In this document: positions 60,712 through 63,349 of the stretch, in pieces
Numbering within the stretch: the stretch's first letter is position 1
How the letters are laid out: the number at the start of each line of letters is the position of its first letter
Assembly (NCBI RefSeq): GCF_021631985.1
Contig: NZ_CP070225.1
Coordinates: forward strand, 9,796,001 to 9,860,000
Source of the DNA: Sandaracinus amylolyticus
Lineage (GTDB): Bacteria > Myxococcota_A > Polyangia > Polyangiales > Sandaracinaceae
DNA length: 64,000 nucleotides
Reading direction: 5' to 3'
Translations under genes and position numbers: made by a program
Notes under the pieces: generated by a model
The model's database searches: none
The model's input: the letters and a program-made list of their open reading frames with translations, nothing else
What the model was told of the DNA's origin: nothing

Positions 60712-61416
60712 TCACCAGGTCTCGACGTTCGGCCTCACGTCGAGCTCGAAGGTCCACGCCGAGCGCGGCTGCCGATGCAGCGTCCACATCGCCTCCGCGA
60801 CGTCGTCGGGCGCGAGGAACGCCTCCTGCGGCAGGTCGCTCCGCATCGCGCGGGTGCGCGGCAGATCGACCATGCCGTCGACGATCACCACCGCGACGTG
60901 GACGCCGCTCGGCCACAGCGTTCGCGCCATCGACTGTGCGAGGCTGCGCTGCGCCGCCTTCGCCTGCGCGAACGCCGCGAAGCGAGCGCCGCCGCGCAAC
61001 GACGCGGTCGCGCCGGTGACGAGGATCGTGCCGCGACCACGCGCCTTCATCGCGGGCGTCACCTCGCGCGACGCGTGGAAGAGCCCGAGCGTGTTGACCC
61101 TCCACGCCTGCTCGAGCTGCTCCGCGCTCACGTCCTCGAACGTGCCGAAGACGCCCGAGCCCGCGTTGTGGAGGAGCACCTCGGGCTCGCCCATCTCGCT
61201 GCGGATCTGCGCGAACGCGCTCGCGATGCTCGCTCCGTCGGACGCGTCGCACGCGAACGCGCGCGAGCCGGGGAGCTCGCCCGCGAGCGCGCGCGAGTGC
61301 TCGAGCCCGCGCGCGAGCAGCGCGACGGCGTATCCCTCGCGCGCGAAGCGCCGCGCCAGCGCGCCGCCGATCCCCGGGCCCACGCCGATCACCACGCACA
61401 CCGGTCTCGTCGTCAT
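60712..61416 (-). CDS. Short-chain dehydrogenase/reductase family protein
   Basis: 234 aa. NAD(P)-binding Gly motif IGVGPGIGGALA (residues 10-21) and LLHNAGSGVFG in the NNAG position. The active-site region reads VTGATASLRGGARFAAFAQAK. The Ser and Tyr of the usual triad are Ala/Thr and Phe (F149), while Lys (K153) is kept. This substitution also occurs in a subfamily with the text FAAFAxAK, so it is probably native. The cofactor is likely NADP or NAD; substrate unknown. Three REP-like elements lie just upstream. Confidence 0.85.
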   Translation of the reverse strand: MTTRPVCVVIGVGPGIGGALARRFAREGYAVALLARGLEHSRALAGELPGSRAFACDASDGASIASAFAQIRSEMGEPEVLLHNAGSGVFGTFEDVSAEQLEQAWRVNTLGLFHASREVTPAMKARGRGTILVTGATASLRGGARFAAFAQAKAAQRSLAQSMARTLWPSGVHVAVVIVDGMVDLPRTRAMRSDLPQEAFLAPDDVAEAMWTLHRQPRSAWTFELDVRPNVETW

Positions 61417-61426
61417 GCGAGGGAGC

Positions 61427-61457
61427 CTAGTACTGCTGCCCGGATGTTCGTTACGGG
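61427..61457 (+). repeat. 31 bp REP-like element, copy 1
   Basis: Starts CTAGTACTGCTGCCCGG and ends TTCGTTACGGG. The two halves CCCGG and the CGGG end can pair. It is oriented opposite to copies 2 and 3. See the findings for comparison. Confidence 0.7.
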
Positions 61458-61469
61458 ATCGATGTTCAG

Positions 61470-61500
61470 CCCGGAACGAACGGCCGGGCGGCAGTACTAG
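61470..61500 (-). repeat. 31 bp REP-like element, copy 2
   Basis: On the minus strand starts CTAGTACTGCCGCCCGG and ends GTTCGTTCCGGG. With copy 1 it also makes an inverted repeat over 61427-61500 with CTAGTACTG arms. Confidence 0.7.
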
Positions 61501-61506
61501 GAGAAA

Positions 61507-61537
61507 CCCGGAACGAAGTTCCGGGCAGAAGGACTAG
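61507..61537 (-). repeat. 31 bp REP-like element, copy 3
   Basis: On the minus strand starts CTAGTCCTTCTGCCCGG. The core CCCGGAAC-TTC-GTTCCGGG is a perfect 8 bp stem with a TTC loop. Same orientation as copy 2. Confidence 0.7.
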
Positions 61538-61586
61538 AGCCCCGAACGTCGTTGCGTCAGCCGTGCCCGCATCGCAAGGAAGCGCG

Positions 61587-62165
61587 ATGCGCTCCCTCGA
61601 TCTCGACGCGGCGTTCGCGTCGTTCCCGGTGCTCGAGACCGAACGGCTCGTGCTCCGCGCGGCGATGCCCAACGACGCGCTCGACCTCTATCGCATCCTC
61701 TCGGACCCACGCGTCACGCGGTACTTCGGCCGCCCGCCTTGGACGGCGCTCGCGCAGGCGGAAGAGCGCATCGCGGTGACCGACGCCGCGTTCCGCGAGC
61801 GCAAGGGCATCCGCTGGGTGCTCTCGCTGCGCGGCAATCCGCGCATGATCGGGAGCTGTGGGTTCTGGCGCATGGTGCCCGAGCACCTGCGCGCCGAGGT
61901 CGGCTACGAGCTCGATCCCGAGCAGTGGGGCCACGGCTACATGCCCGAAGCGCTGCGCGCGATCGTGGCATTCGGCTTCGACGTGCTGCGCCTCCACGCG
62001 GTCGAGGCGCACATCGATCCGGAGAATCGGAATTCCGCGCGCGTGCTCGAGAAGCTCGGCTTCGCGCAGGAGGCGTACTTCCGAGAGAGCTACTACGAAG
62101 CGCAGAACGATCGCTTCACCGACACCGCAGTGCTCACGGCGCTCCGCACCACTTGGCGGCGATGA
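61587..62165 (+). CDS. GNAT-family N-acetyltransferase (RimJ/RimL type)
   Basis: 192 aa from ATG 61587, AAGGA upstream; GTG 61563 is a weaker start. FPVLETERLVLRAAMPNDA is the typical beginning of RimJ/RimL-like acetyltransferases. The acetyl-CoA loop region reads VGYELDPEQWGHGYMPEALRAIVAFGFDVL and the end ENRNSARVLEKLGFAQEAYFRESY is characteristic. It could modify a ribosomal protein N-terminus or a small amine. No genetic partner. Confidence 0.9.
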   Translation: MRSLDLDAAFASFPVLETERLVLRAAMPNDALDLYRILSDPRVTRYFGRPPWTALAQAEERIAVTDAAFRERKGIRWVLSLRGNPRMIGSCGFWRMVPEHLRAEVGYELDPEQWGHGYMPEALRAIVAFGFDVLRLHAVEAHIDPENRNSARVLEKLGFAQEAYFRESYYEAQNDRFTDTAVLTALRTTWRR

Positions 62166-62188
62166 GGGGAATTCCTCTAAGGAGAGCA

Positions 62189-62289
62189 GGAAAGCAGGAG
62201 AGGAAGGCGGAGAAGCTCGCTACGGATTTCGTAACGCTACGGATTTCGTAGCGCTACGGATCTCGTAGCGCTCGAATCTCCTGCTTTCC
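62189..62289. repeat. Nested inverted repeat between convergent genes
   Basis: GGAAAGCAGGAGA (62189-62201) is the exact reverse complement of TCTCCTGCTTTCC (62277-62289). Further imperfect pairing extends outward (GGAGAGCAGG against GGGGAGCAGG). Between lie three 17-base tandem units. It separates the GNAT and oxidoreductase genes and likely acts as a transcription barrier, but its size suggests more. Confidence 0.7.
62218..62268. repeat. Three tandem 17 bp units
   Basis: CGCTACGGATTTCGTAA, CGCTACGGATTTCGTAG and CGCTACGGATCTCGTAG follow each other without gaps at 62218, 62235 and 62252. Each contains CTACG and CGTAG (or CGTAA) that can pair around a five-base loop. Placed inside the larger inverted repeat. 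Confidence 0.8.
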
Positions 62290-62323
62290 TTTCTTCCTGC
62301 TCCCCTCAGAAATTCTCTTGGTC

Positions 62324-63349
62324 TCAGAGCCCGATGTCGACGCGCCTTCCCGCTTCCGCGAGGGATCGCTGACCGGCCTCGAGCACGCGCACCACCGCGT
62401 GGCCGCTGCGGCCGCTCGCGAGGGGCGGGACGCGCGTGCGCACCGCGTCGAGGAACGCCTCGGTCTCGCGCCCCAGCGGCTCCGCCATCTTGAGCGCGGG
62501 CACCACGATGTCGCCGGTGCGGATGCGGACGCCCTGCTCGTACGTCAGCGCGGCGGGCGGCGGCTCCACGCCCTTGTCGAAGAGCGTGAGCTTCATGTCG
62601 GGCGACGCGTCGTCGAACACCGCCATCTTCTTGGTGCCCACCACGGTGAGCCGGCGCGTCTTGTGGGGATCGAGCCAGCTCACGTGCACGTGCGCGAGCT
62701 TGCCGCCGCGATAACGCACCGTCGCGAACACGACGTCCTCGATGCCGCGCTCCTTCTGGAGGAACACGCCGCCGCTCGCGCTCACGCTCTCGGGCTCGGC
62801 GTCGAGCAGGTACGCCGCGACGCTCAGATCGTGCGGCGCGAGCGACCACCACGCGTTCTCGTCGCGACGCACCACGCCGAGGTTCGTGCGCTGCGACGTG
62901 ACGTAGAGGACCTCGCCGAGCTCGCCGCTGTCGACGATCTGCTTCAAGCGCTCGACCGCCGGATGATAGAGCAGCAGGTGCCCGACCATCAGGATGCGCT
63001 CGCCGCGCTCCGCGAGCTCGCAGAGCTCGGCGCTCGTCGCCGCGCCGAGCGTGAGCGGCTTCTCGACGAGCACGTCGCGCCCGCGCTCGAGCGCCTTCTT
63101 CGCGAGGTCGTGGTGGGTCGGCGCGTCGGTCGCGATCACGATCGCGCGCACGCCCTCGTCGGCGAGCACGTCGTCGATCGACGTCGTGGTCTTCACGTCG
63201 GGCCACGCGCGCGTGACCGGGGCGAGCGCGGCCTCGCTGCGATCGCAGACCCAGCGCAACGACGCGCCGCGCTGCGACGCGAAGTTGCGCACGTGGTTCT
63301 TGCCCCAGCCGCCCGCGCCGACGACCGCTACGCCGATCGATTCCGTCAC
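62324..63349 (-). CDS. Gfo/Idh/MocA family oxidoreductase
   Basis: 341 aa from GTG 63349, which overlaps the thiolase TGA (GTGA). N-terminal Rossmann motif [18 protein letters not shown] (7-24), then the family motif [10 protein letters not shown] with the conserved EKP. A C-terminal alpha/beta domain follows. GFO/IDH/MocA enzymes act on sugars, inositols or related alcohols with NAD(P). Coupling to a thiolase is unusual, but the overlap may be only positional. Substrate unknown. Confidence 0.9.

Follow-up and report, generated by a model that had tools for sequence, protein, structure and literature searches.

IS630-family (Tc1/mariner) MITEs are described as short, non-coding elements with inverted repeats and a CTAG-like target, and an IS630-associated composite transposon was reported to prefer the TA in 5'-CTAG-3' (Tenzen and Ohtsubo 1991, as cited in PMC2170065). 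MITEPsy1 of Pseudomonas syringae is a 100 bp element with inverted repeats for which insertion at CTAG or YTAA is described (PMC3189936). The SMR elements of Haloquadratum are ~110 bp in size, carry prominent inverted repeats, lack a known transposase and insert into other elements according to PMC3119063. REPs and REPINs, which are associated with RAYTs, are described as extragenic hairpin units with a tetranucleotide, arranged in inverted pairs and supplying TAG stops (PMC3733652, PMC6006769, PMC8266576).

Here we analyzed an element in a window of 64,000 nt from the genome of Sandaracinus amylolyticus (the host) which resembles each of these systems in the features named. It differs from the IS630-family MITEs in that a parent IS with matching ends was not found within about 0.9 of the 10.96 Mb of the host genome, and in its 111-bp form, which combines a 74-nt hairpin with an additional end unit, one CTAG being common to both. 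In contrast to REP/REPIN sequences its CTAG is located 8 nt from the stem, the host carries no Y1 gene above the cut-off, the number of loci is 18 and the relatives are longer inverted-repeat elements. The Haloquadratum SMR elements are archaeal (PMC3119063), and MITEPsy1 has IS5-like ends (GGAAGG...) and an unrelated sequence (PMC3189936). No published description of such a miniature-element family in large myxobacterial genomes was found in our literature search.

Structure of the composite and its copies in the host

The preliminary description of this locus had recorded three related 31-nt units, two of them in one orientation and one in the opposite. Sequence inspection and a repeat search recovered exactly these units at 61427-61457 (unit 1, plus strand), 61470-61500 (unit 2, minus strand) and 61507-61537 (unit 3, minus strand). 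A second match was not obtained in the window, as had been claimed as well. The earlier reader overlooked that the units are one composite of 111 bp (61427..61537, plus strand, both CTAG included) which recurs as a whole, end to end; the window copy, which was itself used to build model R1, scores 123.5 bits against this model.

Units 1 and 2 form the 5' and the 3' arm of a 74-nt hairpin (61427-61500) which starts and ends with CTAG and has 31 facing positions with few mismatches and a 12-nt loop (ATCGATGTTCAG, 61458..61469, plus strand). The internal CTAG (61497-61500) lies at the end of unit 2. This CTAG-bounded hairpin is joined by the 6-nt linker GAGAAA (61501..61506, plus strand) to unit 3, which consists of a short hairpin (61507-61525) and a tail closing with the third CTAG at 61534, so that the composite is bordered by CTAG at both ends. 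Units 2 and 3 share 81% identity, and the inverted unit 1 is complementary to unit 2 by 88% (32 nt) and to unit 3 by 84% (31 nt). The distance of 8 nt between CTAG and hairpin stem was found at all three units.

The two neighbouring genes are divergent and 170 nt apart; the element takes up 111 nt of this interval and starts 10 nt upstream of the ATG of the first gene. These genes code for a short-chain dehydrogenase (SDR; 60712..61416, minus strand; PF00106, E 1.5e-34) and a GNAT acetyltransferase (61587..62165, plus strand; PF13302, E 3.2e-36), respectively. The element is short, has terminal inverted repeats and lacks coding capacity, as do MITEs, and according to crude gene calls it combines extragenic placement with foldable inverted pairs, as do REP/REPIN sequences. 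A group of three 21-nt repeats (CGCTACGGATTTCGTAGCGCT) with a spacing of 17 nt follows the GNAT gene at 62176-62310. They sit in a 27-nt inverted repeat of which 14 nt are perfect (AGGAAAGCAGGAGA/TCTCCTGCTTTCCT); the structure may be a further hairpin element or a terminator of large size.

A 201-bp stretch containing the composite matched other places in the genome with E values down to 1.8e-46, which is far beyond chance. The 11-mer CCCGGAACGAA occurred 20 times, compared to 0 occurrences of a control pattern, and five of the 20 were not copies of the element. Within the host genome (10.96 Mb, two contigs) 18 loci were counted, comprising 16 covariance-model matches (E <= 0.01) and the loci 9766323 and 5670582 identified by BLAST with the consensus. 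Seven of them are full length (892011, 1712260, 9857427, 10262936, 7526841, 900350 and 7349144). The 74-bp hairpin alone was found at 8721010 and 6613640, internally deleted copies at 5533432 and 1114262, single units at 5750317 and 9766323, and four weak fragments (E 1e-4 to 4e-3) at 4713624, 5181115, 2207279 and 10607331. The arm order is the same in the dispersed copies. The genome-wide count thus contradicts the case, named at the outset as fatal to a repeat family, that only the copies of the window exist; the loci are mostly intergenic. Their number, weak fragments included, is low compared to the hundreds of REPs in E. coli.

The hairpin structure was drawn up manually on the basis of the window copy and applied to an alignment of 12 full copies from three genomes, namely the host (7), the same-genus genome G001 (1) and genome G008 (4). 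Paired cells amounted to 91.1% compared to 82.1% in shuffles, with 0 of 500 shuffles as high, and slid structures reached 24-41%. Changes on both sides were present in 18 of 39 pairs, again with 0 of 500 shuffles as high. The clearest compensatory case is TACTGC..GCAGTA in the host, which corresponds to TACGTCG..CGACGTA in G008. Further pair types were not in excess in the 12-copy alignment (28 vs 27.9 in shuffles). These data show that something maintains the inverted repeats; the pairing does not say what.

Empty sites and relatives

The flanks of 11 host sites were joined without the element and compared with G001. Ten of the sites were located there, L020 being the missing one. At none of the ten was a recognisable element match present; the G001 matches lie elsewhere, and therefore none of these sites holds a recognisable copy. 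At five sites the junction was clean and contained just one tetranucleotide: GTAG at the site of the window copy, TTAG at L009, CTAA at L013 and CTGA at both L011 and L012. The junction at L016 was nearly clean (CTCAG), and L010 and L033 were ambiguous without a clean junction. At L018 G001 retains CTAGGACCTCG, which may be a remnant, and at L015 a different CTAG-bordered stretch is present. From the empty sites and the five single-tetranucleotide junctions it follows that the element is mobile and enters CTAG-like sites. We consider it very probable that it is a mobile, non-autonomous inverted-repeat element inserted at such sites.

Several copies are flanked by CTAG on both sides. At L011 and L012 CTAG is present on the unit-1 side and CTGA both on the unit-3 side and at the G001 site.

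A covariance-model search of 38 genomes, with the best 100 candidates scored per genome, revealed copies in the host, in G001 (3 loci) and in G008, as well as weak matches in G007, G009 and G018. The matches of G007 and G009 resemble a different hairpin and were set aside. For the G018 elements we considered that they form the end of a coding IS; their ORF lists show no common transposase-like frame. Among 183 genomes of the order, with the best 4 candidates scored per genome, a DNA match was present in at least 8 including the host. A pattern scan of named genomes yielded only the MAGs Prado145 (Myxococcota) and SSF7 (Sandaracinaceae).

The relatives in the order are palindromic inverted-repeat elements of 157-174 bp with CTAG ends. 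In G048, G052 and G053, which belong to another family, a 169-bp palindromic element has the end unit of the host element and a different core. With a threshold of E < 1e-20 it was found at 40 places or more in G052, at least 14 in G053 (two of which are pieces of one copy) and at least 7 in G048, with the best 40 candidates scored per genome. Directly before one element copy an array of CTAGCTAGCTAG was observed (L214 1242-1253) which resembles repeated insertion or excision scars.

A scan of the fetched loci additionally identified unrelated families of CTAG-bordered inverted repeats of 157-169 bp. Some of these families adjoin the first one with one CTAG in common at L041, L170, L182, L267, L273, L179 and L187; examples are the palindromic elements at L041 1347-1504 (158 bp) and L170 1336-1504 (169 bp). 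Abutting families with a common or touching CTAG were also present at L048 and L180 (L170 equals L218 and L182 equals L278). A 620-bp match in L060 was rejected as it represents a different type of long, exact inverted repeat, and a 250-bp match of a later scan was set aside as an element with an insert. In a 400-kb sample of the host and the window no CTAG-bordered inverted-repeat pair besides the element of the window was found.

Transposase and competing explanations

By the data at hand the element resembles a commonplace "parasite of a transposon" rather than a classic REP. The reading we favour, and regard as probable, is a non-autonomous MITE moved in trans by a DDE transposase that most likely belongs to the IS630/Tc1-mariner group. 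Acting by cut and paste, this enzyme would recognise the inverted-repeat ends of the element (CTAG-TAC..CTGCCCGG.. and the hairpin units, with a GTAC start), insert the element at the TA inside CTAG and duplicate this TA, so that each copy would be bordered by CTAG on both sides. The left TA (61428..61429) and the right TA (61535..61536) would then be the presumed target duplication and the element proper would span 61430..61534 (plus strand), as suggested by the conservation of the innermost base and the IS630 target rule in the literature.

Both the transposase family and a duplication of 2 bp (TA) rather than 4 bp (CTAG) are inferred. End conservation was determined for 73 left and 62 right ends by gap-free extrapolation, with palindromic copies in both lists. 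The innermost base of the end tetranucleotide was kept in 126 of 135 ends, which agrees with, rather than proves, an element that starts with the G next to TA. The TA positions (102 and 110) were not more conserved than the outermost base (111 of 135), and this speaks against a TA duplication. The CTAG/CTGA asymmetry of L011 and L012 also counts against the IS630 reading, as it needs extra changes under a plain duplication of TA or CTAG. With TA, an ancestral CTAA and one A-to-G change per lineage are required.

An 829-bp inverted-repeat element with CTAG ends in G152 encodes the N-terminus of an IS630-type transposase (NF033545, E 3.1e-14, 53.1 bits, below the cut-off of 100; HTH_29 and HTH_23 above the Pfam cut-offs). 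Its ends begin with CTAGTGCTGC compared to CTAGTACTGC in the element studied here, which is one difference in about ten bases. It was the sole CTAG-ended inverted-repeat element among the fetched loci in which transposase-like coding was seen. Two IS630 genes served as controls, for which only TA-flanked inverted repeats were sought. The Rhodococcus gene is located between two CTAG (1338 and 2472) that are part of an inverted repeat; its borders are uncertain because these ends lie within a longer inverted repeat. The locus of ISAzs14 contained no CTAG, and its best end candidate was ATAC/GTAT. The search of about 0.9 of 10.96 Mb of the host did not reveal an IS630 with matching ends. A DDE_3 (PF13358) gene remnant split over two frames is present on the second replicon C2 (L249 653-2166), and no CTAG-bordered matching ends were seen around it.

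Alternatively, a DDE transposase that duplicates 4 bp of target in the manner of IS5 (PyTAPu, mostly CTAG) could mobilise a MITE of the same kind. IS5 targets were given as CTAG in 15, CTAA in 3 and TTAG in 3 of 24 cases (PMC5493358), TTAG and CTAA are among the empty G001 sites, and the 100-bp Pseudomonas MITE is described to duplicate CTAG or YTAA (PMC3189936). Since the innermost end base behaves as borne by the element, and, in searches for Y1, Y2 and IS630-type transposases, the only one seen within a CTAG-ended inverted-repeat element is IS630-like, we hold this to be unlikely, though not negligible. A rolling-circle derivative (IS91/ISCR or Helitron-like) would account for a hairpin followed by CTAG, which resembles the 3' end of Helitrons (CTRR); the Helraiser element terminates with CTAG and has a 19-bp palindrome 11 nt upstream (PMC4778049). 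Y2 (IS91) is present in the host, with a Y2_Tnp gene on replicon C2, and in G008, G018 and G052. G001, G048 and G053 are without a Y2 match, no unit match better than E 0.05 was found at 20 Y2 loci, and both ends of the element are alike and inverted, unlike those of Helitrons. This origin is thus hardly credible. Nearly as hard to maintain is a non-selfish nature, by which a transcribed structured RNA or bidirectional terminator would have spread for its function at gene ends. Compensatory pairing and the frequent position between gene tails would fit. The pairing is equally explained by inverted-repeat ends, the window copy lies between divergent genes, the element is absent at the orthologous G001 sites and no Rfam family reached the gathering score in 61300-62400.

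The preliminary description had called the units a REP-like hairpin family and compared their CTAG ends to RAYT-type sites. The family stands insofar as dispersed, mostly intergenic hairpin repeats exist; an origin from REPs is not supported, and by the tests made the element is no REP. In detail this explanation assumes a doublet-plus-singlet family of REP/REPIN type, in which CTAG replaces GTAG and which was spread by a RAYT (Y1 HUH) now lost or too divergent. The anatomy, with a tetranucleotide 5' of every hairpin and paired inverted units, is in its favour, and so are the reports that the TnpA of Stenotrophomonas retains reduced cleavage of a CTAG-tagged REP (PMC8266576) and that structures found beside certain Y1 genes have other feet, e.g. 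CnGA (PMC6006769). At L011 and L012 the unequal tetranucleotides would be explained if only one of the two was supplied by the flank, and a one-sided HUH-like mechanism needs no extra change there. Furthermore, G008 and G152 carry both units and Y1 genes, with six Y1 matches each. However, published REPs have GTAG or GTGG at 0-2 nt from the hairpin foot, with atypical feet in some classes (PMC6006769), compared to 8 nt for CTAG here. The RAYT gene proposed as a check was not found either: no Y1_Tnp (PF01797) exceeded the cut-off in the host, G001, G018, G048, G052 and G053, and the E. coli control was positive. Matches below the threshold reached E 0.04 in G052 and G018, and the best in the host (E 0.81) lies in a frame judged non-coding. 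In G052 this result stands beside an abundance of the 169-bp element. At 35 Y1 loci of relatives (some overlapping, the six of G008 included) the unit gave no match below E 0.037, and no unit was seen at the six Y1 loci of G152. Taken together we regard the REP explanation as improbable. Close to a Y1 match in G152 tandem 14-nt repeats of CTAGGAAGCGTCGT were observed (L208 818-905).

CTAG scarcity and stop codons

CTAG occurs seven times in the window compared to 163 expected from base composition, with a ratio of 0.24 to the Markov expectation, and three of the seven belong to the element. In the 400-kb sample 33 CTAG were found, compared to 1026 (base composition) or 220 (Markov) expected. 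Copies moved by the proposed DDE transposase could land at gene ends and leave the stop codon of the neighbours intact, because CTAG is scarce and TAG stops account for part of the sites that remain.

A coding-like frame ended at the TAG of the terminal CTAG in 8 of 14 element loci (the four weak fragments of the 18 were left out), in three of them on both sides, compared to 9 of the 33 background CTAG sites of the 400-kb sample (Fisher p 0.095). The stringency of this test is low: of 2000 random positions, 642 satisfied its upstream part. It did not demonstrate a stop-codon preference beyond the availability of CTAG. That GTAG termini of REPs frequently supply TAG stops has already been published (PMC3733652), and this likeness is a further point on the side of the REP explanation.

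The element extends the repertoire of large myxobacterial genomes by a family of mobile miniature elements. It is also a caution that a single MITE may be mistaken for "three REP-like hairpins". We tentatively raise the possibility that the order carries a guild of unrelated palindromic elements (157-174 bp, besides the forms of 74 and 111 bp) which dock at scarce CTAG, stack end to end and settle at TAG stops without breaking genes. If this is true, the scarcity of CTAG would be an address for safe insertion. The placement at CTAG and stop codons is a checkable case of a transposon that reaches harmless sites via a scarce word.
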